Below are positions 15,701 to 33,439 of a stretch of DNA of 64,000 nt, one piece after another. The notes beneath the pieces were generated by a model, which was not told the DNA's origin, ran no database searches, and saw only the letters and a list, made by a program, of their open reading frames with translations. The DNA is from Asterochloris sp. CNOR1 (Eukaryota > Chlorophyta > Trebouxiophyceae > Trebouxiales > Trebouxiaceae). The translations under genes and the position numbers were made by a program. Positions within the stretch are counted from its first letter, which is position 1. Each line of letters starts with the position of its first letter. The stretch lies in NCBI GenBank assembly GCA_963969365.1, contig OZ017755.1, positions 558,001 to 622,000 of the forward strand, written 5' to 3'.

Positions 15701-18043
15701 GTGCGCACAGGGCACCAGGACTTGGTGGTGCACCCCGACGACCTGCCCCTGTACACCAAGCTGCAGCCCGGGCGCATCGTGCAGCGCCAGCACATTGTGC
15801 TGCACAAGCCCTTTGCAGAGGTGGGGCACCTGCGTGTGTTTTGTGTGGCCATGCTGTGGCCTCAAGCAGTGGAGTGCCATTGCAGTGTGCTACATAAGGG
15901 ACCTCTAGTGGTGCGGTGCCACCACCTTGTGCTGGACAAGCTTCCAGTCAGGTCTGGGGCAGTCACCATGCAGCAGGCTGAGCCTGCTCAGCCTGCTCTG
16001 CGCTTCTTGCCCTGGCCTGGTGTTGGCCTGTCAAGTTTCACAAGCAAGCATGTGGGTGCATGGTGCGATGCCGGTCAGAAGCAGGTCCTTGCCATCCACA
16101 GCACCTCCTGCTGCAAGCTCATTGGCCTGAACCCACATGTCCCAGTGTCGCTTTGCAGTAGCACTCACACTGTCGTCCTGCTGCAGGTCCGTCTGGCTCT
16201 GGAGCTCATGTTCGAGGGCACCCAGGGCACTGGAGACCTCGCGCAGGTCACAGGCACAACTGGCGAGATCCTCAGGATTGGCACCGCGGTGACGATCACC
16301 TACCAGGCCAAGACTGAGCAGCAGCCGCGGCCATGTGTCATTCTGGAGTGGGAGGGAGGCCCCATGAACGACATGATTGCAGATGCAGTCATTGCAGTCA
16401 TTCTCCAGGTGCGTCGGCCTCCTTGAGGATACTGAGACCGCTGTGTGGCTGTCACTTCCCTTGCAGTGGTTCATACACCGGCCCTTCTGTCTGTTGGCTG
16501 CACAGCAGAGGGTGTGTGGTGCACAAGGGTGCATCGGGAGCTGACCCCTTGTGGTTGCCTGGGTGACTGCCCTGACTGACAGCCAGCAACACACATTGGG
16601 CGGCAGCTCAGCTGTCCTGTGCAAGCGCCGTACAGTCTTGCCCTCAAAGTCCTTACCTGTTCGTCTGTTGCTTGGCAGTCTACAGGACATCCATGAGTAA
16701 TAGCCTCTACATCAGTCCCTGTAGTTGCAGCACTGAGTCCTGGCGTGCACTCTTTGGTTACGCCCTAGCACCTGGCACAGGAGGAGATGCCCGTCTGTGT
16801 TCTCTTATCCTGGCAACACCAACTATTGATATTGATACAAGCAACAAGTTTCTCATCGGGCCCCCCACCAGCAAGCACTCGTCTGCTGGTGATCATATGC
16901 CCCTGTGGACCTCATCTGGCCCCGCATCAGCAAGCATGTGTATATCTGCTACCGGATCACATGCCCATGTGATTCTTACCAGGCCCCGCACCAGCAAGCA
17001 TGTGTCAGCTGCCGATCACATGCCCATGTGATCCTTACCAGGCATGTGTCTGCTGCCTGCAGTCCTCAGGGGAGCCCCACAACCTGGCCCAGCAGGAGGC
17101 AGCCCGCAGGGACGCTCTGGCCGTGCAGGACCCTGCAGTCGTCAGGCGCCAGGAGATGTACATCATCGCCACGCTGCTGAACAGCCAGTTTGGGCCGGCC
17201 AGAGTGGATGAGGAGCAGGGGCTGGTGCTGCTGGAGGTGGGCGGCTGCAGTTGTCAATTAATGGCGGCAGGGGGCTGTTTGCCATGGTGCTGTCAACAAT
17301 AGGTGCTGTGTAGTGTGCTCGAGCATGTTGCTGAGTTTGGTTCTTGCACGGCATCTGTGAGGCCGTGGTAGTGGTGGCCAACTGCTGAGGTGTCTGGGTG
17401 GCAGTGGTGCGCTGGGGCGCTGGGCAGGCGCTGGTGGCAGTGTGCTTGGCCTAGTCTGCGCCGCTGGCCTCAGCAGGGGCTGGGCTGCTATAGCTCACTG
17501 TGGTCACAGCGAATTCTGGCAGCAGTGCTGCTGGCGATGCTGGGAGGTGGGCTGCTGCACTGCAATTGAGGTGACCGTCAGTGACTGCTGGTGGCAGTGC
17601 TACACAAAGGAGCAGGGGCGCAAAATGGGGCGGCTGCACTGCGCTCGGGGACGCTGCTGGAGTTGGGCTGCTGGTTGTGGAATGCAGCAGTGCGCTCGGG
17701 TGGCAGCATAGGCCAAAAGCCTGGAGATTGGCTGCAATTTTTGTGCCTGGATGAATCACTGATGGGGGTTGAGAGGTAGCCTGTGCTGTGCTTGGCTACT
17801 GTCCCTGGAGTTGGGCTGTCACTGGCTGCTGCTAAGGAAGCCCTGCCTGCCATGGCTTGGCACACCGGGCAGGCCTTGTTGCAATACCTGCTGTGCCTGC
17901 AGGTGGACAGCCAGCATGTCATTGTGGATCCCCGAACCCGCAGTGTGCAGTGCTCTAATGAACCTCTGCGTCTCCGCGTCGACAGAGCGCTCCAGCGCCT
18001 GCAGGACGCCATGAGACCAATCCCCATCAGCACAGAAACTTGA
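9733..18043 (+). CDS. CPSF3: CPSF73, pre-mRNA 3'-end processing endonuclease
   Basis: This is the catalytic subunit of the cleavage and polyadenylation specificity factor, the nuclear metallo-beta-lactamase/beta-CASP nuclease that cuts pre-mRNA before polyadenylation. Fourteen exons join in frame: 9733-9860, 10100-10271, 10767-10868, 11106-11195, 11562-11712, 11955-12094, 12624-12776, 13239-13487, 14299-14419, 14942-15069, 15641-15820, 16187-16408, 17063-17236 and 17903-18043. That is 2151 nt, about 716 aa, against roughly 690 for plant and animal homologues. All metal ligands are visible: HFHLDH (H81, H83, D85, H86), GHVLG (H172), YTGDYS (D193), motif A ESTYG (E218), motif B SGLARR, motif C SAHAD (H410) and LVHGE (H432). 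The C-terminal dimerisation region is present. The start was chosen because [11 protein letters not shown] leads directly into the conserved [12 protein letters not shown]. Intron 4 uses a GC donor. Introns after exons 5 and 8 contain decayed copies of exon sequence. It should be active. Confidence 0.95.
11798..11832 (+). repeat. Decayed copy of the 3' end of CPSF73 exon 5
   Basis: The last part of exon 5 and its donor (about 11688-11717, ctgccagaggtgcagcctga) recurs about 110 bp downstream in the intron as ctgccaaaggtgcagccgga, followed by a degraded donor region. It is most simply an old tandem duplication. Confidence 0.65.
12579..12608 (+). repeat. (AAAAAC)n microsatellite
   Basis: Four to five copies of a CAAAAA unit lie 16 bp before the acceptor of CPSF73 exon 7. 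They replace the usual pyrimidine-rich tract in this intron. Confidence 0.85.
13600..14100 (+). repeat. Decayed tandem copies of CPSF73 exon 8 in the following intron
   Basis: Exon 8 ends (about 13428-13490) with sequence reading [19 protein letters not shown] and a donor. The intron that follows holds similar but broken copies. At about 13634-13696 ctgatcagccagcttgaggatgtgctgctgcagaacgg is the clearest. At about 13860-13935 a copy of the [18 protein letters not shown] segment is interrupted by stops. A weaker match lies near 14045-14085. None keeps an open frame with both splice sites. Confidence 0.65.
16860..17046 (+). repeat. About three tandem repeats of about 60 bp
   Basis: The unit runs ggcccc...caccagcaagca, then a variable part with ctgctgg or ctgcc, then gatcacatgcccatgtga and ttacca. 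Two copies are nearly intact (about 16917-17040) and one, upstream, is diverged. The array sits in the intron before CPSF73 exon 13. The gatcacatgcccatgtgat core is itself an imperfect palindrome. Confidence 0.7.
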
Positions 18044-18717
18044 GTTGCAGCCTAATGTACTGAACCCGCCGCAGATACCATTTGATCATTTGATGAATGC
18101 CTGTATCGAGCGCCCTGCACGGCCTCAATGCTCACAAGCCTTAGCAGCCAATGGTGTCTGCTGTAACACCCCTGTATCCCTTGCATTTAGAGTTCTGCTA
18201 GAGCTCCCTGGTATTGTGTGACAGATCATTGTGGGCACAGTTTTCATCCAGTGGCAGTCAGTGTGCAAGCCACACTGTCAGAGCAGCTTGAGTGGCGTAC
18301 AAGCTTCAATGAGCCAGCTGTTCTCATGGGGAGAAGGGCATGGTCATGCCAGTCTGCGATGGCCGTTGTTCCCATCTGACTGTCAATTTCATGGCCCCGC
18401 TGACTGGCTGTCTAGCATGGGCCTCTTCCTTCCGTCAGGCCTGTTCCTGCTGGCTTGCTGCCTTCAAAATTGCTGCTTGTGCCGCTTTACACATCAGCAA
18501 AGGTGTTCAGCAAATCCCTGGCCTCTTCTGTTTCCAAGATTCTGCCATGCTTCCCTGTTACTCGTCACTCAACTTCCGGCAAGCTGCTAGTCATCCTCCG
18601 AAGCACCAGCAGCCTCACAGCATCTGTGCAGCTCAAGTTTAGAAAGAAATGGTAACATCGTCTGCCGGCTGCCTGACCTACGTTCACCAGGAGGTCCGCA
18701 AATCGACAGTAGGAGCC
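18044..18717 (+). other. CPSF73-RPL6 intergenic region
   Basis: This holds the 3' UTR of CPSF73 and the RPL6 promoter/5' leader. TGTAA at 18162-18166, about 120 nt after the CPSF73 stop, matches the usual green-algal polyadenylation signal. I see no further coding sequence. An in-frame ATG at 18649 would extend RPL6 by 23 codons, but the ATG at 18718 has the better context and starts the conserved part. Confidence 0.5.
18162..18166 (+). promoter_or_regulatory. Candidate polyadenylation signal TGTAA for CPSF73
   Basis: TGTAA is the common poly(A) signal of green algae (established for Chlamydomonas). This copy lies about 120 nt beyond the CPSF73 stop codon, a normal 3' UTR distance. The assignment is by position and motif only. 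Confidence 0.5.
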
Positions 18718-20153
18718 ATGGCTAAGGAGCTGGCAAGGGGGATCAGGTGCAGCTCCAGCTATGAAGTTGTTGCCATGCTGCTAAAACTACAGTGCTGGCA
18801 GAGGTCGTGCCCACCAGGACACTGCAAGCCTTGCCTGCCACTTCCTGCCCACAAGCTCACCCGGCCTGCAGTTCCCAGGGGCGCAGCAAGTCCTACCACA
18901 GGCGTGGGATCTGGGCTGTCAAGAAGAAGAACAATGGAGAGTTTCCCAAGCATGCTAAGCAGCCAAAGGCAGAGGCCAAGGAGGCGAAGGCTGCCCGCTT
19001 CTACCCAGCAGACGATGTGAAGCAGCCCCTGCGGCGGCGCGACATTAAGAAGCCCACCCGCCTCAGGAGCAGCATCCAGCCAGGCTCAGTCCTGATCCTG
19101 CTGGCAGGTCAGCTTGGGGGCCACACTGGCTGCTGGGCAGCTGGACTGGGACTCAGAGGATTATTTGCTGGGTACCAGGCCAACAGGCTGCCTAGCCTAT
19201 GACAGCACTCTGCGTGCACCTCCCGTTGGGGAGGCAGCTAATGATGAGCTAGCGTGCCGCCTGGGTGTTTCTGCTTGCACATGATGCTGCCTGCCAGGCC
19301 AGCTGGTGCATGTTCAGCAACCTCAAATTCGATGCATGCTCAGCACTTTGCCAGCACATCGCGCTTGTAAGTACTGCTCTGGTGCATGCCTACACACTGT
19401 TTTGCCAGTGGTGGCGCCTAGTTGTGGGCATCAGGTAATGTCTGAGCCAGCCTTCAAGGCCGGCAAAGGCTCATTGCCTTATGAGCTGTGGCAGTGCAAC
19501 ACAGCTCTGTACCAGACGGCTGAAAGACCCCCATCCTTGCTGCCCTGTAGGCCGCTTTAAGGGCAAGCGTGTGGTTTTCCTGAAGCAGCTGGACAGTGGG
19601 CTGCTGCTGGTCACTGGCCCCTTCCAGGTCAATGGCGTGCCCCTGCGGAGAGTCAATCAGGCATACGTCATTGCCACCAGTGCCCAGGTGGACATCAGCA
19701 AGGTGGACGTCAGCACTTTTGACGACACCTACTTCAAGAAGCAGGAAGCTGCTGCCAAGAAGGGCGAGGAGAAGTTCTTCCAGGACGAGAGCAGCTCTGG
19801 GAAGACTAAGGTGTCTGAGGGACACGTGCAGGACCAGAAAAAGGTCAGCAGAGTTGCCTGTTGAGCTGATTGATATGCCGACTGACATGCCAGCCTGCAG
19901 CAGCTTGCCAGCTTGCGGTGCTGTGATAGTGTTCTCAGTGCCCTGAGCTGCCCACTGTGTACTTGAGTGCTAGTCTGCCAATTGCATGGCCCCCTGTCTC
20001 ATACGCTGCTCAAGGCAAGGCTGGGCTCTCACCTTGTGTGTTCTGTAGGTTGATGCTGCCCTCATTGCTGCGATCAAGGGCGACGTGAAGGGCTACCTCG
20101 CAACACGTTTCACACTCTCCAAGAACGACAGGCCACATCTCATGAAGTTCTGA
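18718..20153 (+). CDS. RPL6: 60S ribosomal protein eL6
   Basis: A cytosolic large-subunit ribosomal protein. Four exons join in frame: 18718-18746, 18872-19107, 19551-19843 and 20049-20153 (663 nt, 220 aa; plant homologues are about 230). Diagnostic blocks are [17 protein letters not shown] near the N-terminus, [19 protein letters not shown] across the exon 2/3 junction (the KOW-like SH3 core), [18 protein letters not shown] and the terminal DRPHLMKF. The exon 1/2 splice joins ATC AG to T TCC and restores the conserved [13 protein letters not shown] order, which fixes a very short first exon. The start ATG at 18718 has a GCCATGG context. The gene is in tandem with CPSF73 and convergent with the deubiquitinase. 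TGTAA at 20169 may be the poly(A) signal, though it is unusually close to the stop. Confidence 0.95.
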
Positions 20154-20692
20154 GTGCACTTTGTGCCATGTAAACCATCAGATAGGCCACCACAGAGATG
20201 GGGTTGAAACGTGGTCAGCAGCCATCTACCATTGACATGAAGGAACAGCCTTCCCGCTTGGCGCCTGCTATGGCTGACGGGACATGTCCCAGGGCTTTCC
20301 ATGGCCAGTTTGGCAAGCACCTGAGCTGCGCTTGATGGCATGCAGGCAGCGGCGCCTTGCAGCTTTCCAGCCCTCTGCAGAGCTGCTTGGTTGCTTATGT
20401 GGATAATATTTGGCCCCTGCTTTGCCGCATCAAAGAGTCCCAGCAGTCTGCCACTGGGTCTAAGCTAACTGCTGGCCTGATATTATGTCGGTGCACATGC
20501 TGTCTATAGATCCTCAGCATGCAATTGACATTCTGGATCTGACCCTCAGCAGTGAGCTGGCACCAAAACTCAACAAGGTGATCCTCACAAGTGTACAACA
20601 TGTTCTGACTACTTGTATCATCCTCTTCATGTACATCATGGCTGAGCGTCTATGGGGCTGACTCCCTTTTCCTCTTGCGTCCCTGCAGCAGA
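20154..20692. other. Convergent 3' intergenic region
   Basis: This lies between the 3' ends of RPL6 (+) and the deubiquitinase (-). I looked on the minus strand for the missing C-terminal ubiquitin-like domains of UBP12/USP7 and found no matching exon. Short open frames here show no family similarity. Confidence 0.5.
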
Positions 20693-23600
20693 TCAAGTGA
20701 GCTTGCAAATGCCAGCGATCAAAGCTTCGGCCTGAAGGCCATGCGGTACCACCCGCAGGTGCGCGCTCAGCAGTTGTGATTGCAGCAGGCTAAGTGCCTG
20801 CCCTGACCAGCAGTAGTTGCGCACTGAAGACAAGTGAACTTTCGGGTCCATTGTCAACGAAAGCAGGCAGGCAGTCCCTGTGTCCCCAGCAACTAACCTT
20901 TGGCTGCCCTGGCTTGTGGAAGCACAACATCTGGCTGTCACCCATGTACTCCAAGAAGTCCACCACAGTGGGAACTGGAGCTCTGCTGACTCCACCTGCG
21001 GAGGGGCACGCATCGCTGTGCAAGGGCAGCGCCAGTGGACACATCATGCGTCTCGAGCATGCCAGCAGATCCCCGCAGGGCACCCCCAATAGTGAACCGC
21101 CACCACCAAGCGTTTAAAGTTGGGTCCCGCGGGCAGCACCAGCTGAAAGAGCAGTCAAGGCAGAGAAGGCCAGAGCCCCTCAGGAAGAGTGCACAGGCCA
21201 GCCTGCCCAGGGTCCATCCAGGCAGGCGTACCATGTGTAAGGTTCCCCTTTTATTGTCACCGGTGCAGTCTACAATGCCACTCTCATACATGAGCACCGC
21301 ACACCTCTGTGAGGGCCTTCTGGAAGCAGAGGATGTCTCCATCCTCCAGCTCTGCCATGGCCAGGGTCAGCCCCGGCGGGCAGGGCTCACACAACACCTC
21401 GGGCTTGCTTTTGACCTCCTCCCAAACCTGTAGCCAGAGATGACTGCTTTGCAGGGCAACCTGACTCGTAAGATCACATGCGCTGCTCGCCACAGCAGTG
21501 CACCTTCTCATGCAACAAACTGAGGCAGGCAGGGGAGAGGGCTGCACACCACACTCGAGCTGGACCTCTGCAGCAGGGTTCATTGGGCAGGACGAACTGC
21601 TGAACCTGGAGGGTCATGCACCAATGACTCAAGGTGCAGACCATGAGCAATGCCGCAGAGGCAAGCGCTGTAGGTCATGCATGCGCCTCTGTGAAGCCAT
21701 GGCTGCACGTGCAGCAAGAGCCCACCATGAGCGGCGTCGCCTTTGCAAACCCGGCCAGGCGACGCATCAAGGTGTGCAGGCCACGAATCTGTGCCTGCTT
21801 GGGGGCCTGCACTAAGTGGCAGGACGTTGGCATCTTTTCGGTGCTGACTACGCTTGCCAGGGTGCCAGCCATTGGAGTGCGGCAAGCAGGCCAGGCTGGG
21901 CAAAGGCCCCACAACAGCATGAGAAAGTCAGACATGGCCAGGCAAGGTGCCAATGCGCTGGCACATGGAACAATGTTGCTCCGCTTTCAGATCAGAGGAG
22001 TAACAGGCACGCTACCAGGAAGTGGCCAAAGCCTGCTTGTACTCCATTTGGTCCTTCAGGTGAAGCCTGTTAAAGCGTAGTCAAGCCAGCCACCACGCTC
22101 ACCTTCAGGGCGGCCCCCTGTATGACAGCTTGCGCTGCTTGGGGCAGCTCCAGGACTGCCATCAGCCTGGAATGAAGCCAAGACCAGCATATCCACCAAG
22201 CCCACCTGAAGGTGACCTACGAAGGACAGCTTGAGTTGCGTGGGGTCATAGAGCTTGAAGAAGAGGGTGATGTAGCCAAAGGCGAGGTCCGGCAGAGGTC
22301 TGCTAGTTTCGGGGGTCTCCAGAAACAGGCAGATCTCGTTGGTGGGACCATGCCCACGGTGCTGCCCGTCCTGCAAAGCAAAGGCAGGTGGCACTGAGAA
22401 CCAGCAGCAGGCACCTGCGAACTGGACCCCTGACCTAGGTGGGACCTTTGATGAATGCTTGGCCCTGGACACAGCAGCAGAGGACAGGCTGTGCCTGGAG
22501 GCGACCAACGTCAAAACCAGGCCTCCAAGACATGAGAAGCACGCCTGCATACACCGAAGCAGGCCAAGGCTGCATGTCTTGAACAGCACTCCATTTAAAT
22601 TGCATGTCAGGCCACCCTTTGCTGCTCAATGCACCTTGAGGTCCCTGACTCGTCTCGTGTCATCAGCAGGGGTAAGGATGTTGTTGGGGCGGCAGGTGGA
22701 GTTCTGGCGCTTAGCCCAGGTCCAGAAGCGTTGCTGCTCAAGGAGCACCTCTAGGTCGTCAGCCAGCAATTGCAGGAGCTCCAGGAACTTTGTCTGCTTC
22801 TTCACACGGTAGTGCTTCACCTGCAGGGGGCCAAAGCAGAGCCACTGGACTGATCAGGCTGCACCTGTTTGGAGCACAGCAGATCCTACAAGAGAGTGAA
22901 TCAATCACAGGGGCAGCAAGTATTGGGCTCATAGGGCCGCACCTGACCTCACCTTTGCAAGAGTGTGTATTGGCAGACAAGCAGGTGACAAAAGATAAGC
23001 AGCAGCTGTGCCAGCTGACAAGGCAGGCCAAAGCTGCTGATCACACCGGCAGCTGGCAGCTGAGGCCACGGCAAGCTCAGCTGATTTGTATGTCGGCCAC
23101 CAATACAACTCTCAGTTGGAGACCATTATTGGCGGTCAGTTAGACTGCACAGCACACATCAGCTCTGCTACACCCACCTTATCCTGGTCCACCAGGTCGA
23201 AAAAGAGAGTGTTGCCAATCTGCTGCTCCATGTCTCTCCGCGTGGACAGCTTGATGGTGGTGAATAGGCGCGCCTCAGCTTTCTCCTTCCGTTGGCGCTC
23301 CTTCTCAGCTGTCTCAGCCTGGAGCAGCATGACGCCCATGAGAACTGCAGCTGCCTGGCAAATGTATGTGGCAGCCAGCTGGGATGCTGTGATGCAGCAC
23401 ACCGTGCATCAGGAGTATGCAGAGAGCCTTAGGGAGGGCGGCGAGGAGCAGAGGTCAATTTGTTGCTGTCCTGAGTGGCCAATTCCCTGCTATGAACTGC
23501 CGAAGCGAGGTGCAGGCTTTGCAATAAGCAGGCAGAAAAGGCCGTTCCCGCGCCAGCACCATGCATGCTGCAAGGCCCCACCTCCATGGATGCGTGAGCT

Positions 23601-26600
23601 CAACAAGCACCTTGGCACCTTCAGAAGCCCCCTTCACACATGCTGCATGCAGAGTTGATCTCCAGCCAGGCCAGGCGCCTCAATCACTTGAAGACCAGAG
23701 CATGAAGCACACGCCCTCATGCAGCTTGCAAATGTCAGTCCACCTCCCGGCAGGCACAGATTCCCAGTCAGGCACAAGGATTCTGTTTGCAGTGTAGCAT
23801 CCTGAGCTCGTACCCGCACGCATGCAGGTCGTGCCTCCAAGTTGAAGCAGAAGTGTTGCATTGGACAGTCAGCACCGCAGTCAAGCAGAAGGAGTCTGCT
23901 TGCAGTGCAACATCCTGAGCTTGTACCTGCACGCATGCAGGTCATGCCTCCAAGTAGAAGCGCAACTGTTGCATTGGACAGTCAGCACCGTGTATGCAGG
24001 CCTTATAAGTGTGATCGTAAATGTGGTTACCTCCAGGCGGGCCATGTGCGCATGCTGCGCAATGTCGGTGTTGGTCACGTCAACCATGATCTCGCTCCAC
24101 ATGGCGTCCCTCACATACACGAGGCAGTATGCGCTGCTGGTTTTGGCAACACCGAAGCCGCGCGCTGTCAAGCCGGGAGCAGGGGAGGCACTCTCATACT
24201 GCCCCCCATACTGCTCATCCATGGCCTGAGCCTTGTTGGCCTTGGTCACCTACAGGCATGGCAATGTGACGCATGTCGGGTGGTTCCCACAGGGCATTTG
24301 GCTTGCACAAGCAACCAGCACGCAAGCCTTGTGCGTACACTGTGCCAGCCAGCAGGACAGTGCAATCTGCATTGGGCAATATAACATCTCTGTCATGCCA
24401 TGCATTCACAGCATGGACATTGTTGGCCTTGTCGGCGCAGGACTGCACAGGCAGGTTGCTGTGCGGAGAGCAAGGCTGGCTAGAGGCCCTACGGAAGACA
24501 AAGCAGTGTTGACAAAGCAGAGCTGATCAAGGAAAGGGTTTTGGGGCCCTTGAGCCTCATGCCACAGCTATGTGCTGGTTGCCTGGCTGGGGCCAGGGCC
24601 AGTGCAATGCAAATTGGGCACCTGGGCAGACCGCGCCCTGGTACAACATCCAGGATGACCTGGCGTAAAGGTGCATGTTGCCCTAGAGGTTCTGCCAGAG
24701 AAGAGCTGTGCAGGGCCCTGTACAGTGCTTACCCTGTCATCATCAAACTTCAGCCACTGCTTGCCATCTGGGCGAATGAAAGCACAACAGTGGCCCCCAT
24801 GTACATCGCCTCTGTGCACAAGCACGCTGTGCAGCTTGTACAGATTCCTGACAGACTGATCTGCCTCCTTTGCCAGAAATCTGCGGTGCCCATAATCTAA
24901 GTCCAGCTGCTCGGGGAACTCATATCGGTCATTGATCTGCAGGGCAGGCCAAGCAAAGCTGAATCTTCTGCTTTCTACTGCCTTTGTAGAAGCCAGAGGC
25001 TTCAGGAGGGCAGCTGAGATGATGTGCAGCCTAGCAACCAAACTTTGGACTCCAGCAGGAGCATTAGCCCCGTGCGCAGCCTGCTTAGGCATGGCAGCAT
25101 TGACGTGAGGTAGCACAAGCTGCTGATGAGCAGGCTGCAAGGCCTGCCTAGCTGCTACAGGACACATGTCCTCAACGACCTTCACATGGCTGTCATGTTG
25201 AAAGTTGTACTCAAACCGCTTAAGCTGCAGCTGCAAGACTGGCGGAAAGTCTTCAAACTGGATGCCTTTCCTTGCATCCTGCAGGCAGCGAAGGCTGCGC
25301 GTCCCTGGGGTGGGGCCTTCCAGCACGTCCAGCAAAGCCTTGGTGGGGCTTGGATTGATTGCGGAGTGCACAGTAGAGTTCGAGAGCCTTTTGGCTGAGC
25401 TCAAGCCCACTGCATTGCAAGCTGCAGGCTGTGCAGCATGCTGTAGACAGCAGTGTCTACATGGCGCTGCCCTGCCACAAGCAAGTTGCAAGCTACACTG
25501 TGTAGACCATGCTCAAGCAGCCAGCAACATGCAAGCTGAATACCACACACCATGCTCAAGTCATTGTCACCTGCATGCCCAAGCCCTCAGCCCTGTATTG
25601 ATTCTCGCCTTCCAGCAGCTCCACCTTGGTGTACTGCTCCATGGAAGCATAGACATTCCTGCGCAGCAGATGGCGCCACAGTTCTGACAAGCTGCCCACC
25701 TTGTCCGCCCAGGCAGAAGGGTCAATGGCGGCCTCTGGTGCCTGTGAGCATGGCTTCCTTGCCAGCCCGCCACATACTAAGTTCCCTGCCAAGCCTGTTT
25801 TGCAGCCAGGCATGTCCTGCCGTCAAAAAGGGCAAAGCCTGTGCAGCTAGCAGTGCTCAGTGGCTTCCCATCAGCCGTCAAGCATCGGCCCAATACAGGA
25901 GCAGATGCCCTTTGCAGCACTGCGAGCTTGCTTTTGAGCACTGCCCTGGACGCAGCGAACGCTGGCAGCCCTTAGAACAGTGCTCACTCGCAGCCTTTGA
26001 CGTCCATGGACAGGTCCATGTACGTCTCCTTCCGTGCCGACGAGTACTCCACATTCACGCACTCCACAAATGACTGTGTGTGCCCCTCAAAGAGGTACCG
26101 AATGGTGCCGTGTACGCTAGTGTTCTGCAGCACGGCACTCAGAAGCGCGCCTCAGTAAGGGCATAAACCCATCTTGCCTGCTGAAGATCAGCTTAAGTTG
26201 CCATACTTTCGTACACACTGGACTGTTAGTTGGGCAGCAGCAGGCACAAAAGGTCCAGCATGGGCTCAGGCATGGCAACATTGCAGAAGCCCTGCCTTTG
26301 GGCGGCGGCAGACCGTGCCTCCAGGCCAGCACTGAGGTCGCAATGCTTTACTCTAAGCAGCACAGCAGCAGCCACCTCACCTTCAGCTTCTCTTCAAGCT
26401 TGGCACAGAGCACCTTATTGAGCTCTTGTGCATCATGCTGGTTGAACGCGTCCACCGTGTCCCAGCCAAGAGACTTGGCCAAGTCTTTGGTGGAGACACT
26501 CTTACTCTCAAATTGCAGCTGCAGAGAACATAACAGCCAGCGTCAGTCTCAGAGGAGGCAATGCGAGTGCTGGTCTGAGGGAGACCCACAGAGCCACCAA

Positions 26601-29085
26601 CTGCAGAAACACAGGACCACTGACAGATTGCAGTCTGCAATGCCGTACATGGCTGCCAGAAACAGCCGTACATGCTGAGCACAATGCTGGCTTGACTCAA
26701 GGCTGCTTGCCCTGGCTGTCTTCTGGGGCACACTTGAGTCAGCATTCATAGCGTGCAGCGAGCCGCGGAAGCAGAGCACTTTGGTTAGGCTCCCACCAAC
26801 CTTGTAGAAGAGCGCTTGCACGGCCAGCGGGATGCTTTTATTTGGCTGCTCCTCCTCTGTGGTAGGCATGTGGTATACTGCCTGCAGCCCAACATCGGGT
26901 CTTCGTAAACGCTACATGCTTTTGTGCATGCATCAATGGGCAAACATGGGGACTTGATAAACTGCTGGCCCTCAGAAGGCAGGTGGGAAAGTGTGCCTAC
27001 CTGCCGGAAGTAGTTGATGTTGTACAGTGTCTGCAGCAGCGAGTTCATGTAGCAGCTGGCGCTCAGGTCCCTTAGTCCCACAAAGCCCGTCTCCTTCTTG
27101 CTGTCATGCATCACGTCATCAATCTCTAATTTGATGACCACCTGCACACGCAGGGCAAGCCTGTTGACGTGAAGCCCGTCAGTCTTTTGGGGCCGGGCTA
27201 CCGCATGGAAGCGCTGCTGTGCAGGGTGCACAGCTGGCGCAAAGCTTGGATGCGGCCTGCCAAGCACTTGGCTGTCTAGAGTAGTCCGTGCTGTGAAGAT
27301 GTTCCGAAGAGCACCTCCTCTGAGTGGGCCTGCAGGCACCTGGAGGCCACCCACAACATGACAGATGCTGCTGTCCATGCATATTGCACGCCCACAACAG
27401 TCGCACCTTCAGGACCAGATTGTCATCCACAAGAAAGCCATTGCGCATGTCCAGAATGTCGTTTTGCAGGGCAAACTTGTTGAAGCCCCAATCCGGCGCC
27501 TGTGCCGTGAAGGTGTGGGCAGCCTCTGCAGGCGCATGACACCTGTTCAGGTCTCTGAGCTATCTGTACAACAGGCAGATGGCGGTTGCTGAAACAGAGC
27601 CATGCGGCATACTGCGGCTAGTTGGTGCCCGTGCAGCCACTTGCAAATAGATCAAAAGGCCTGTCCACTGACTGCCTGCTGCAAAAGTCAGCACCACTTG
27701 CCCCGCAGTGAACCCAAGAGACTGCTACTGGAGTTTGCATTGTTTGCTCTGCAGTAAACACAGACTACAGGAACTCACCTTTGACGATGCTGCGGGCGGC
27801 ATCTTGTTGATTGACCAGCACAAGCAAAAAGGAGGCTCTCCTGTGCCATCTGCGTGGCAGCATCTCAGCGTCTGCGACGTCCAGGTAAACAGAGATGAAC
27901 TGCTTGCTGTCCCTGTTGCCCCTGGGAAACACCAGCAGCTTCCTGCACAGGGCACAAGCGTAGCATGAGGCACATGCACAAGCAGTGCGGAAGCAGCCGC
28001 ACAGTCCAGCTGAAGCTGCAGGCAGGGGTGCAAATCTTGCATGGAGGCCTCAGCAGGTGCTCACCAGGGTTTGCTGCAGACCTCAAACTGGTCCGAGTAC
28101 AGTCTGAGGTGAGCTGAGGATGAGAAGTTGGGGATTCTCCACTGCAGGGCAGCCAGGAAGGGCCTGGAGAGGCCTGAATGCATGATGCCAGCCCCAGAAT
28201 GCACACCAGCCAGTGCCTGCCAGCCACCACTGCGCTGTAGGGTGACAGCAAGCACCAGCCTGTGTGCCAGCTGCTCACCGTGTGTTCTCCTTCAGAGCCA
28301 GGCGCATCTGCTGCAGCAGCAGGCTGCGCCTGTGTGTGTCCCTCAATAAGAGGCGATATGGCAGACTGGATACGGGCATTCTGCAGCAGGGCAGTCGTGA
28401 ATGCGTCTCAGTGAGGGTACAAAGCCATCTTGCATGCTTTACACCAAATCTGCGCTGTACATTTGTGCACTCTGGCCTGATCAGGGCAAAAGGCAGGCAC
28501 ATTAGCGGGCTCAGGGATGGCATAATTGCTGAAGCCCTGCCTCTTGGCAGCACCTGCCCTGGCATGCGCCTCCAGGCTAGCACGGAGGACGGGATGTCTG
28601 AGTCTGAGCAGCACAGCAGCAGGCAGCCTGACCTTAATTTTCTCTGCCAGCTGAGCCTTCAGGCGAAGCAAGCCATCCACTTGGCGCCGAACAACGATGT
28701 TAGGACTCAACGTCAGGTTGTCTCCAATGGCTATATTGGTGACAGGGCACCTGCGCACGTGAACCACGTGCGCGTTGCGCCTCACCATGGCCACTGCAGA
28801 GAAACGCAGTCGAGGGCAGCTGCAAAATGATGCATTTGGACATTGATCTGAGAGCAACATCCACCTTGTGTGTCCTTGTTGCCAGTGCTCCTCTATGGAA
28901 GCTCGACTGAATGTCTCCCCGCTTGCAACCAGCAATACCGGGTCCTCCATCGGCTGCAAGGTTATCGGACATGACAGCTCTTCCTCCAAGTCCTCTATGC
29001 GCTGCTGCAGTTGCTGGTAAGCTGCCTTGTTGTCAGGCACAGCTGGCTGGGGGGTCCCGGCTGGAGGGTGACATGCAGCAAACAT
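20693..29085 (-). CDS. U-box-MATH-USP fusion, UBP12/13 (USP7)-like deubiquitinase
   Basis: 21 exons join without a phase break (2814 nt, about 937 aa): 29085-28865, 28750-28633, 28380-28279, 28141-28065, 27942-27779, 27525-27407, 27141-27001, 26881-26801, 26518-26381, 26124-25988, 25658-25571, 25278-25180, 24936-24733, 24249-24031, 23318-23178, 22820-22635, 22370-22206, 21806-21726, 21427-21298, 20995-20898 and 20797-20693. Exons 1-2 encode a coiled coil and a U-box (residues about 38-105, CPITLQPMEDPV..CPVTN), the E2-binding fold of E3 ligases. A short linker leads to a MATH domain (about 148-265), then the USP catalytic core: Cys box GLRDLSASCYMNSLLQ (C297), KRFEYNF, His box HGGHCCAF (H544), KFDDDR. 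UBP12-type ubiquitin-like domains follow (FTTIKL, RFWTWAKRQN, ITLFFKLYDP, LEDGDILCFQK, DFLEYM). Plant UBP12 lacks a U-box and runs about 300 residues further at the C-terminus. The linker exon has no ATG in the MATH frame, so a separate start for the USP part is hard to place. The core is certain; the fusion is inferred from phase. Confidence 0.85.
23776..23994. repeat. Two tandem copies of a 113-bp unit
   Basis: The block beginning aaggattctgtttgcagtg (23776) and ending ttggacagtcagcaccg recurs from 23889 as aaggagtctgcttgcagtg with few differences. The array lies in the intron between exons 14 and 15 of the deubiquitinase gene. No coding role is seen. Confidence 0.8.
26125..26380 (-). repeat. 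Introner-like intron, copy A
   Basis: This is the complete intron between exons 9 and 10 of the deubiquitinase (256 nt, GTGAGG..GTGCTGCAG). Read in the sense of the gene, it is similar along its length to the intron at 28381-28632. Shared blocks include gctgctgctgtgctgct near the donor, cctggaggc, ggcagggcttc.gcaat, gccatgcctgagccc / gccatccctgagccc, and a 3' part with gcaagatggntt..ccct.actgag.cgc before tgccntgctgcag. The match begins at the donor and ends at the acceptor. Confidence 0.75.
28381..28632 (-). repeat. Introner-like intron, copy B
   Basis: This is the complete intron between exons 2 and 3 of the deubiquitinase (252 nt, GTCAGG..CTGCTGCAG), homologous end to end to copy A at 26125-26380. 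That the similarity ends at the same acceptor supports the start chosen for exon 3, the linker between the U-box and the MATH domain. Confidence 0.75.
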
Positions 29086-29435
29086 ATGCTGGGACGTGGG
29101 GGAGTGCTAAGGGCACGCTGCGATCTGTGCCAGTCTGCCTTGTGCTGATGCGCGTTCTGCAGAGGTCCAGCTTTCTTGTTAGCAGTAATTCGACACTGGC
29201 CAACCTTGATGCGCCAAGGCCTGGCACAAGCGTGAGTGCCTACTGTTGCCCCTGACCTGGGATCGTCCACAAATTCTTGAGTTGCCTACTTTTCAAGACA
29301 GTGGGCGCGCCGCAGGGTCACACCGCCCAGCCAGTGGTTCAGTGGCACTTAAGTGCCAGAGCTGACTTTGGCAGAAATAGGTTATGCTGCGGGGGGCAAC
29401 ATAGCATGCTGTGAAAATCAGTGTGGCAGAATAGG
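29086..29435. promoter_or_regulatory. Divergent promoter region
   Basis: About 350 bp separates the start codon of the deubiquitinase (minus strand) from that of the DUF1499 gene (plus strand), so both promoters and 5' leaders must fit here or overlap the first exons. I see no TATA box or known element. The region may also hide an upstream non-coding exon of either gene. Confidence 0.45.
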
Positions 29436-31365
29436 ATGATTGTCGCTCGATCTGTGGCGTGGGGCCATTGCTCCAGCAAGCAGCAGCAGGATGGCCGACT
29501 CAGCAGGTACATACCTGGCTCCTGAGAGCAGCCTGGTCTGCATGCTGGCAGAACATGTGTCACATGATTGCGCTGCAGGCGCCAGCTGCTGCACCTTGCA
29601 TTGGGATCTGCACTCCTGCAAGCGCCAGGCTGTCATGCAGCGCAGCTCGCCAATGCTCCCAAATTTGGCAACTGCACCGACTGCCTGGGGGAGCTGAATG
29701 GAGCGCTTAATGCCTGCCCGCTAGACAGCCCTTCCTGCCAGAGTTGCCAGAACGATGATGAGGAGCACTTTGTGCCTCCCTGGGCTTACAACAGCAGCAA
29801 GGCTGATGCAGTGCAGCGGCTCATCGCCATCTCGACAGGTGATCTCGACAGGTATTTCCTGCCTTGCCACTGTGCTCCCACGTGCTGTCCAGGTGACATG
29901 CTGTGCCCAGCAGCATGCCCGCGCAAGCAATTGCTTGACAAGCCGCCAGCCCTTGCTTGGCAAACTCACTGAGCAGGGCAGGATCACTGCAGGCGGTGAT
30001 TATGACCCCGGCCTGCTGGAGCAGCCATTCAGCCTGAAACCTAGGGAGGCGGCCAGCTTCATTGTGCAATCTGTTGGCAAAGTCGTCACAGGTGCAGTTG
30101 CACCGCTTTCTGCCACCAAGCTTTCACATTCAGTAACCCTTTCAGTCAGAGGTGCAGACTTTCTGCCTTTCAGCTTTGCATTCAGCCACCCTCTCTGTAG
30201 CACCTCTAGGACATGGACCAAGGCTTCACCTGCATGTACTTGCCCCACACAGTTCCCCAAAGAGCCTGCACAAACCCTAGGGGACAAGCGCTCTCTCAGC
30301 CAGATGCCCCTGCCTAAACGGCAGTGGCCCTCTGCATGACTTCCTCATACAGATCCCCTGCCTGCCGGGCAGCAGACTAAGCAACCATTGCACTAATAGA
30401 GACAAAAGCTTGTGTCTGCAGGGCACCACCACCACCACCACCACCATGTACCACCAAATTTGCAAGAGACAGCCAGTCTGAGTCTCAGACACTTGTTCTG
30501 GCCTGCAGGGCAGCAGCCCCATGCAGATGCACTCTGTCACAGGCTTTACCTCCTGCCTGTAGGTCAGCGACCTCCCCCGCGGCCTCTACGCCAAAAGCAG
30601 GTGGCTGCGCAGCTCTTTGATGGCAAGGTCATGGACAGCCACACCGCCAATGATGGCTCCAAGTACATCCGAGTGCTGTTTGGCAGCACCACAGAGGATG
30701 ATCCTGTTGCCCTCATCGATGCAGAGTTTAGCTTTCCTGCAGGTAAGCTGCACACTTCATCTGTGGCAAGCCAGCTCTGTGGTCGTGCTGTGGCATTGGT
30801 TTTGGCCTTTGCCATAGCCGTACTACTGTGCCATGGAGGCTTCCGACATCACTATGCATCTGGCAGTACTGCTGCTTGACAGGCAGGCACGTTGCACAGA
30901 CAGTCATTGTGGCACCGAAGGATACCACTGCCAATATGCACCAGCAAATCTCTGTGTTACAGACCTTTTGCAGGCCTGCTCTTCACTGTCACATCTCTCA
31001 TAGGGGTCTGACACTTGCCAGCTGCTCTGCAGATGACAACATCATCAACCTGAGAGCTTCCTCTAGGACTCAGCCTGACCGGAGAACGAATGGCAGCCTT
31101 TCCCTTTCTCTCTCAAAAGGAGTTGTGTATGATCAGAATGCAGCTAGGAGGCTGCTTGAGCGCCTGAGAAAGGCACTCAATTTTGAGACTGTGCCGGTGA
31201 GGTCAAGTGATTTACACGAGCTTTCATAATGATGTGTTCCTGCTGCGGCCCAAGACTGTGCATGCCGTGCAGGTGATCACTGGGTTTGATCCAAAGTACA
31301 ATTCTGAGGAGCCACTCTTTTTTGAGCGGCTGTACCAGCCATTTTTGAGAGGCCAGAATAAGTGA
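29436..31365 (+). CDS. DUF1499 protein with thylakoid Tat signal
   Basis: A chloroplast DUF1499-family protein, probably in the thylakoid lumen; the biochemical function of the family is unknown. Exons: 29436-29506, 29579-29838, 29993 to about 30091, about 30565/30604-30742, 31033-31196 and 31273-31365. The first splice creates SRRQLLHLALGSALL (residues 23-37): a twin-arginine motif, a hydrophobic core and an Ala-containing cleavage region, preceded by about 22 residues able to act as a transit peptide. The DUF1499 core follows: HFVPPWAY, GSKYIRVLFGS, VALIDAEFSFP, NLRASSR and ARRLLERLRKAL. The C-terminus is FFERLYQPFLRGQNK. A Cys cluster (CTDC..C..CQSC, residues about 54-77) sits between signal and core. 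The exon 3/4 junction is unsure: acceptor at 30564 or 30603. It is transcribed divergently from the deubiquitinase. Confidence 0.8.
30424..30447 (+). repeat. (CAC)n microsatellite
   Basis: About eight CAC/ACC triplets in an intron of the DUF1499 gene, upstream of exon 4. Confidence 0.85.
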
Positions 31366-31930
31366 ATCCCACAGGCAGGCCTTTACCCTTACCTTCCTGG
31401 ATGTTTCATTGCATTACTTGAGATGCTGAGTGACTCTACTGTACAAGATAAGCATGGTTGCCAGGCAGCAAAGCAGGGCAAACAATGCCAGCATATTTCT
31501 CAGGCTGCAGATAGAACCTTGGCGCCGTTTCCGCTTCCTGTTGGTGGGCTGCTTGTCTTGCTTAACATCCCTGCAGCCACACCGTCACGGCCAAATCTGG
31601 AAAACAGCTGCAGTCCCCGACCGGGGACAGTAAGTCCAGGCTCAGCTCTCTCACAGGAATTCAAGTGTCAAGTGCAAAGGCTGGCTGGCCAACCAGTTTG
31701 AGCTTTGCAACACAGGAGGGTAGCTGCTGCATCCAGGATGTGCCTGATGCCGGGGGGAGGCCTGCCCTGTAACAATAGTGACAGTGCAGGGCTGCAAACA
31801 GATGTCAGTAAAAAGTATCCGGACAGTGTCACTACCTGCTACCTCTGCACATCATCATGAACAGAGAGCACATCACTGCTGTTGATGCAGAGGTCCCAGC
31901 AGGCATGCGCAGCACTGTCCAGAAGAGTTC
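31366..31930. other. Convergent intergenic region, no gene seen
   Basis: This lies between the ends of the DUF1499 gene (+) and the small minus-strand gene. TGTAA near 31768 could be a poly(A) signal for DUF1499 if its 3' UTR is about 400 nt. I see no exon on either strand. Confidence 0.45.
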
Positions 31931-33439
31931 CTAATACCTGCTGGTAACAGGAAGCCTGGGCTGAAACAGGGAAGGCAGTGCGCGCTGCACTGCCCTCGTC
32001 ACTGAGCTGGTGCGTTTGACGTACTTCTGCCCCTGGTCCTGGTCCTCCTCTGCCTGCCCAGCTGCTGTGGCAGCCACCTCAATGTCTGCCGCCTGAGCTT
32101 TGTGCTTGTACTCCGACTGCAGTCAGGGGCAAAGAGTCCATCTCTTCAGGGCCAGAGGGAGATGGTGGAGAGCTGCTGCAGACCCAGAGGGAGGACAAAC
32201 GAGCACAATGGGGTTGCCATGCATGATGGAGGAGAGCTGCTTCAGACCCAGAGGAAGAGCGGGTATTCTCAGGCAGGCAGCAGGCGATGATCTGCATCTT
32301 GGACAGTTTGCAGGTTGGAAGACAAGGAGCATCAGGCCATGTCAGACATTGCCTGCCACTGGCAGTCAGGCAGTCGAAGCTGAGCTTGCTGAATGAGATC
32401 CCTCTCTCTGAGCCCCTCTGCTCACCAGTGACCGCTGCAGACCGCTGCCGCCATCTGAAAAAGTTGGTGTGAGGCCATTGGCCTGTGGCAATGGTGCTCC
32501 TGCAGTGAGGCAACAATGCCCTGAGGCTCTGCACAGTCGCTGCGAAGGCACAATCTCTGCATGAGCACAATCATTGTGTAGTGCATCAGGACTGCAGCAG
32601 ACGTGAGTGCCACACCGTCACAACCACTGCAAAGTTGCTCACATAAGGTCTGTGACCCCTACCTAGGGAGGGACCTGCAGCATCGCTGTTCCCGTTGCCA
32701 GGTGGGTGGCTGCTGGCGAAGGCAGCAGCGCTGACTGGCTGGGTGCTGCCCTGCACCAGCATAGGAACCCTCAGCTGCTGACCCACTGGGTGAGCATTGG
32801 CATGATAAGCAGGCTCAGGCGCTGGCTCCTCCTGCTGGGGGGCTGAAGTGGCAGGTGCCTCACCTCAAGGACGTGCAGCTCATCAATGTCCTGAAGGTCA
32901 TCCAGTGAGTGGATGCGCTCCCCACTCTGCAGCGATGCGGGGCAATCGTCAGAAAGCAATGCAGCGCTCTTATGCTGCACTGCCAAGGGCCAGCCTGTCA
33001 TGCAGGCTGAGCCACGCACAAAGTTCAGAATCATGCAGGAGCCAGCACGCACTGCTTCACATTGTTGATGCGCGTGAGGCCAGCAGCCTAGTCGCTTGCA
33101 CCCACCGATGCAAGAAAAACGCTGTCCACTGCAGCCAGCTTGAGTTTCTTCTGGACCTGCAGTGTAGAGATGAGCTGCGTGAACACCGACAAGGAGCAAA
33201 GTGCGCTGCACGCTGTTGCCAGGCATCCAGCAGGCCAGGCAGCTAAGGCTCACTTGCAGCAGGAACTGCGCCCAGGTGAAGCCGTCCGGCACTGGGACGG
33301 CCACCTTCCTGCAGCGGTGGCAATTCAGGCTGGGACTGAGACACCTTTTCTGGGGATGAGCTACCACTCACCAGTCAGGCACAGCTCACCTGCGAGGCTT
33401 GGCATTTTTTACAGACACAAACACAAGCCTGGACGCGTC
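31931..33439 (-). CDS. Small protein with probable ubiquitin-like/doublecortin-like fold (5' incomplete)
   Basis: I do not know its function. Five exons join in phase: 33439-33390, 33308-33254, 33156-33106, 32926-32864 and 32092-31931. They read RLVFVSVKNAKPRRKVAVPV, PDGFTWAQFLLQ, VQKKLKLAAVDSVFLAS, SGERIHSLDDLQDIDELHVL and a terminal exon ending VTRAVQRALPSLFQPRLPVT. The pattern (two strands, a helix, then GE.I.SLDDLQDIDEL) resembles the doublecortin/PB1 class of ubiquitin-like folds. The tail is acidic and then basic. The first exon with the start codon is not placed; a short frame MASKGYNITQQDMVRFLY near 33550-33500 is a candidate but does not splice cleanly. A low-complexity open stretch at 32690-32840 may be an extra exon, out of phase in my reading. 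Confidence 0.55.

Follow-up and report, generated by a model that had tools for sequence, protein, structure and literature searches.

The minus strand of a 64,000-nucleotide stretch of the Asterochloris sp. CNOR1 genome (contig OZ017755.1, here C10; the stretch is called the window) carries, in this order, a U-box, a linker exon, a MATH domain and a ubiquitin-specific protease (USP) core. We put the probability at about 0.56 that this is a chimeric gene, in which a 7.5-kb copy of a UBP12-type gene lies behind a U-box and whose product would oppose the enzyme encoded by the complete paralogue on contig C3. What can be read directly from the DNA are the domains, their common frame, the duplication, the constraint on the USP body and a changed Cys box. 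As judged from these features, the arrangement is real and well preserved and its origin is readable, while the catalytic state of the core is uncertain. The features are collected in Table 1.

Table 1. Features of the candidate U-box-MATH-USP gene (positions in the window).
Feature	Position	Strand	Basis
U-box exon 1, ATG at 29085	28865..29085	-	Pfam U-box
U-box exon 2, ending in phase 0; final 20 nt from displaced USP segment	28633..28750	-	sequence comparison, Pfam
Segment D, displaced second copy of a USP-core intron and the exon ends beside it	28330..28652	-	blastn
Intron from U-box exon 2 to linker exon (D intron), derived from the USP-core intron	28381..28632	-	sequence comparison, donor score
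Linker exon, mosaic, 102 nt	28279..28380	-	blastn, comparison with C3
In-frame ATG within the intron preceding the MATH exon; sole alternative AUG in that open MATH-frame stretch	28181..28183	-	frame reading
MATH exons	28141-28065, 27942-27779, 27525-27407	-	Pfam MATH_2; USP7 MATH structures
USP catalytic domain, exons 1-4	27141-27001, 26881-26801, 26518-26381, 26124-25988	-	Pfam UCH; PDB USP7, E 3e-93
Cys box RDLSASC (KNQGATC in C3 paralogue and USP7)	27052..27072	-	alignment with USP7
USP-core intron of the gene itself, corresponding to the intron in segment D	26125..26380	-	sequence comparison
USP catalytic domain, exons 5-7	25658-25571, 25278-25180, 24936-24733	-	Pfam UCH; PDB USP7, E 3e-93
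His box HGGHCC (HGGHYY in paralogue, HGGHYV in USP7)	24787..24792	-	alignment with USP7
Remaining open exons, first three	24249-24031, 23318-23178, 22820-22635	-	gene model, Pfam
Remaining open exons, last three, to position 149/241 of USP7_ICP0_bdg	22370-22206, 21806-21726, 21427-21305	-	gene model, Pfam
Last homologous exon, 1-nt deletion relative to C3	20693..20995	-	comparison with C3

Joining the parts yields a model of 19 exons and 868 codons, which enters the linker in phase 0, contains no stop, has GT..AG introns and ends at 21305. Pfam assigned to it a U-box, MATH_2 (residues 146-270, 97.3 bits), UCH (residues 288-608, 181.3 bits) and the first 149 of the 241 positions of USP7_ICP0_bdg, with the MATH domain immediately N-terminal to the USP core. 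An earlier sequence-only reading of this DNA, which had proposed such a domain search of the joined model, had already named a MATH domain and a UBP12-like USP, and both domain scores bear it out. It was also right that the linker exon, flanked by GT..AG splice sites, is in phase 0 at both ends and runs into the MATH exon that starts at 28141. Direct splicing from 28633 to 28141, leaving out the linker, would keep the frame as well. A genome search with the Pfam MATH model gave one match, on contig C5, and missed the window gene, probably because its MATH domain spans three exons.

The assignment of exons 1 and 2 to a U-box, likewise made earlier, agrees with the PF04564 scores, which exceed the cut-off of 21.4 bits both for the N-terminal 314 residues (38.3) and for the full joined model (36.2). 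Exon 1 by itself reached 27.7 bits in a six-frame genome search (C10:586867-586983). The zf-Nse model also exceeded its cut-off in the same 314 residues (30.8 versus 27), below the U-box score. As in plant U-box (PUB) E3 ligases, whose structures are the nearest ones (7xed and 7c96, E 4.3e-10), the window U-box contains CPI, DPV, GETFSR and CPVT stretches; unlike them, the model has no typical PUB partner domain and the U-box is followed by MATH-USP. The exon 1 donor (AAG/GTGGAT) scores at least as high as 14 of the 27 donors of the UBP12 gene pair, and the acceptor of exon 2 scores lower than all 28 acceptors of the pair. The U-box coding frame is the best of six by codon usage; its score (-0.02) is well under that of the USP part (0.358). 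No close relative of the U-box was found; other U-box places in the genome gave protein matches of 30-44% identity. The possibility that the U-box was recently copied from a different gene in the genome was considered and rejected, the only other DNA match being 59 bp of upstream sequence. These 59 bp (window 29276-29334; 86% identical to C3:4208769-4208827) lie between divergent gene starts and could be either a shared upstream element or an old repeat. The divergent plus-strand gene (window 29492-29972; MADSAG..., by eye) seems to start some 400 bp from the U-box ATG, on its upstream side, and its first exons are DUF1499-like, just under the cut-off (21.4 versus 22.6 bits).

The origin of the USP part became apparent from a search of the genome (56.4 Mb, 21 contigs). 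One other place, on contig C3, matched the USP gene exon by exon; the remaining matches, to USP and MATH stretches, were short and weak (at most 27 bits). Contig C3 harbours a complete UBP12-like gene, whose exon 1 starts MEQPEDM and whose exon 2 ends QPAAAADADSTEGEYT (both by eye), and whose downstream pieces include USP7_C2 at 160 bits. The window copy aligns with it at 28333-26963 (80% identity) and 26892-20798 (76%), the proteins are 84% identical over 670 residues, and all 14 introns compared are at the same places in both genes. By these alignments, the window copy is a partial duplicate of the C3 gene (28333-20798) without exon 1, the front of exon 2 and the C-terminal end. It consequently lacks the start codons of C3 exons 1 and 2 and the USP7_C2 domain. 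The C3 start exon (MEQPEDM..., by eye) had no match in window 18000-33000, and the 1000 bases around C3 exon 1 matched only C3 in the genome search. This duplication, which had previously gone unseen, explains the linker exon. At the C-terminal end the UBL region is incomplete, USP7_ICP0_bdg breaking off after its position 149 and USP7_C2 being absent. In the last homologous exon, the shifted frame continues for 100 codons to a stop at 20693, and similarity to C3 ceases at 20798; the frameshifted exon adjoins the duplication breakpoint, where the domain is cut anyway. No 3' end of the gene was identified. Downstream, a plus-strand gene at about 18700-19900, which reads like ribosomal protein eL6 (by eye), converges on the USP copy. 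Within one intron of the USP gene, at 23777-24006, a unit of about 100 bp occurs in two similar copies (by eye), both matching C3 near 2638341-2638457.

Truncation at both ends, the loss of USP7_C2 and the 1-nt deletion would all be expected of a partial UBP12 copy that is decaying into a pseudogene, its in-frame U-box reflecting a coincidence of two phase matches. Also in line with decay are the changed Cys box, a linker free of constraint and faster protein change than in the C3 gene: with USP7 as outgroup, 15 changes in the USP core were polarised to the C10 branch and four to the C3 branch (19 unassigned; P 0.019). However, across 670 codons the two copies differ with dN 0.088 and dS 0.454, a ratio of 0.19, and this together with 868 codons free of stops and frameshifts is unlike long neutrality. 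If the C10 branch were neutral and branch lengths equal, the expected pairwise ratio would by arithmetic be at least 0.5, and the rough ratio for the C10 branch, 0.31 (0.21-0.36; C3, 0.08), speaks against decay too. The differences fall on codon positions 1, 2 and 3 in numbers of 61, 60 and 162, with one in-frame 3-nt indel, and identity is 80.3% in introns and 86.3% in exons. Random substitution of 671 codons at 0.1 per site produced 7.4 stops on average, and none of 1000 runs stayed stop-free. So the C10 copy appears to have evolved faster than the C3 copy, yet under constraint. Since 868 codons are intact and the pairwise dN/dS is 0.19, the USP body, intact and constrained, probably makes a protein, and we regard decay into a pseudogene as rather unlikely.

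The join between U-box and MATH is a mosaic. Segment D runs from 20 nt before the end of U-box exon 2 through all 252 nt of the intron to the middle of the linker, and its homologues are at about 26400-26073 in the window and at C3:2640911-2640584. Its identity to the gene's own copy is 69% over 339 columns (blastn, E 2e-29) and to C3 74%. At the protein level, LAEKIK/NARIQSAISPLIEGHTQ at the join resembles LEEKLK/NTSVHGTIRYLFEGHTQ in the USP core. The 5' part of the linker (to about 28330) thus comes from the start of a USP-core exon and its 3' part (28332-28279) from UBP12 exon 2, the latter half being 89% identical to C3 exon 2 (C3:2642909-2642972). The two matches share 4 nt (28333-28330), an overlap that suits a short-homology join. 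In a genome search that scored the best candidates and skipped very common words, segment D was found at four places, all within the two UBP12 loci. A transposon or introner as the source of the D intron was rejected on the grounds that this search found no dispersed copies outside these loci, and a transposon origin of the segment is unlikely. Identities over the intron, taken from site counts, are 77% between D and C3, 74% between D and C10 and 81% between C3 and C10. By this measure segment D is apparently no younger than the split of the C3 and C10 copies; unequal rates could produce the same pattern. The D-intron donor (AAG/GTCAGG) is one of the three best-scoring among the 43 GT sites between 29085 and 28142. 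It equals or exceeds eight of the 27 gene-pair donors, which places it in their lower third. The linker's 3' half shows no constraint (dN/dS 0.83 on 18 codons), its 5' half is conserved no better than the neighbouring intron, and the linker's codon score is -0.279 in its own frame and 0.017 in another frame.

Where translation starts bears on whether there is one gene here or two. It had been proposed that the linker exon has no ATG and that a stop lies upstream, leaving the U-box exon as the only candidate start. For the linker frame this holds, a TGA being present at 28410-28408 in the upstream intron. Read straight back from the MATH exon, however, the MATH frame meets an ATG at 28183, 14 codons ahead of the exon, before the first in-frame stop at 28294, so "only" was too strong. 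An ATG in this frame between 28632 and 28141, which the same reading had regarded as speaking against a fusion if it came with a separate transcription start, is thus present in the sequence. This ATG, in an intron (28142-28278) whose 88.8% identity between C10 and C3 is the highest of the 14 introns (80.3% overall) and could mean regulatory sequence, might serve a MATH-USP gene with an internal promoter, next to a short U-box gene whose end lies within the D intron or ahead of it. The C3 gene also has an in-frame ATG in the same intron (C3:2642830), 17 codons before its exon. However, the two lie at different places, C3 having ACG opposite the one (the MATH frame there is not closed by a stop) and C10 ATT opposite the other, so neither was inherited by both copies. 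This fits a chance origin, but the presence of an ATG in both copies, within the best conserved of the 14 introns, is compatible with an internal start as well. Either in-frame ATGs come about readily in this intron, or they mark a real internal start.

TGTAA is an algal poly(A) signal, and its single occurrence on the minus strand at 18.5-29.6 kb, at 28443, lies inside the D intron, where a short U-box gene might end. However, the U-box frame continues to the TGA at 28410-28408, about 30 nt beyond it. TGTAA was dropped as proof of an early 3' end, because the C3 gene has none near its own end (between C3 2636000 and 2628083). Against two genes also stands the retention of GT and AG at the linker and the D intron despite 26-30% divergence; the donor, however, has gone from GTGAGG to GTCAGG. 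The split into two genes is accordingly unlikely in our view, and the ATG of the U-box is the best start as the frames stand, though another start is possible.

A single polypeptide with U-box, MATH and USP is therefore the best reading of the locus, and a fusion is likely, since the USP copy is constrained, the start codons of the paralogue's first two exons are missing from it and it is in frame with the U-box. In addition to ATG 28183 and the C3 intron ATG, the points that count against our preferred explanation are the frameshift in the last exon, the low codon scores of U-box and linker, the weak exon 2 acceptor, the unconstrained linker, the TGTAA in the D intron and the existence of active USP53/54, to which we turn below.

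That one chain would combine a ligase fold with a deubiquitinase core, as suggested earlier, stands as the best reading in its first part; the core itself has altered Cys and His boxes and no USP7_C2. Alignment with USP7 indicates that the catalytic Cys, His and Asp are retained. In contrast, the oxyanion-hole Asn (USP7 N218), present in C3 and USP7, is Asp in C10, and the Tyr following the catalytic His is Cys. Five of the 15 polarised C10 changes are clustered in six residues of the Cys-box region (P 0.0002). In the MATH alignment the DW pair is retained, corresponding to USP7 D164/W165, which we take to be target-binding residues. According to PMC10867860, the oxyanion Asn of USPs (USP7 N218) is extremely conserved and poised to stabilise the oxyanion; its role is also treated in PMC12037411. 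Deubiquitination by the C10 core is probably impaired, because the Cys box has changed from KNQGATC to RDLSASC with loss of this Asn. Given additionally the Cys after His and the missing USP7_C2, the deubiquitinase activity of the core may be weak or lost.

On the other hand, an unusual Cys box does not prove that a USP is inactive: according to PMC12037411, USP53/54 had been annotated as inactive and proved active, and other USPs so annotated may be active. A single chimera with a fully active deubiquitinase, which would edit the same targets as E3 and DUB, could draw on such active USPs with odd Cys loops, on the kept Cys, His and Asp positions and on the UCH score of 181 bits. Set against the exchange of Asn for Asp at an extremely conserved residue (PMC10867860), four further changes beside it, the Tyr-to-Cys change after His and the lost USP7_C2 end, this appears very improbable.

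Under the preferred reading of a chimeric gene with an impaired core, 7.5 kb of a UBP12-type gene would have been copied to C10 without start exon and C-terminal end and would have landed behind U-box coding exons. The join would have been made by a further, short copy of the USP-core intron and the exon ends on either side of it, which brought along an intron already in phase 0 as well as one half of the linker exon and thereby leads the U-box in frame into MATH. Splicing into one mRNA would give a U-box-MATH-USP protein, whose U-box would recruit an E2 and may confer E3 activity, whereas the MATH and USP parts would mainly bind ubiquitin and/or UBP12-type targets, presumably shared with the parent, and deubiquitinase activity would be weak or lost. 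Such a protein may ubiquitinate, or compete for, targets that the C3 enzyme deubiquitinates. More tentatively, one may imagine that the UBP12 duplicate captured a U-box start, had its target-binding parts kept under selection and its catalytic box degraded, and so became a ligase on its parent's targets, a scenario that is possible and somewhat doubtful.

Plant UBP12/UBP13 and USP7/HAUSP (MATH-USP-UBL) share with the window model MATH, USP core and the start of USP7_ICP0_bdg in the same order. They differ in that a U-box replaces the normal N-terminus in the model, the oxyanion Asn and its neighbours are changed and USP7_C2 and the tail are missing. TRAF and TRIM37 type proteins combine a RING E3 with MATH and likewise have the domain that binds the E2 on the N-terminal side of a target-binding MATH domain; here, however, it is a U-box rather than a RING, a USP core follows and the MATH is of the USP7 type. 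A20/TNFAIP3 is deubiquitinase and ligase in one chain and thus resembles the window model in uniting opposed ubiquitin activities in one (here predicted) polypeptide. Where the model has USP and U-box, A20 has OTU and zinc fingers, and its origin is unrelated. PMC10218331, a survey of MATH genes in eight plants and algae, distinguishes MATH-only, MATH-BTB and MATH-USP7 genes; Ostreococcus and Chlamydomonas have a single MATH-USP7 gene each, and the term U-box is absent from the paper. A word search of titles and starts of abstracts in the open-licence literature found no paper on a U-box-USP fusion. Scans with two peptide patterns each found no relatives in bacterial/archaeal and viral collections, nor were any found in phages; these collections, being non-algal, say little.

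If a fused transcript exists, the gene would be an example from nature in which exon shuffling has put a writer and an eraser of one modification into the same chain, with breakpoints that are still readable and a complete paralogue that is still present. One could then test directly whether targets meet the opposite fate once the catalytic end is exchanged and the target-binding module stays the same.
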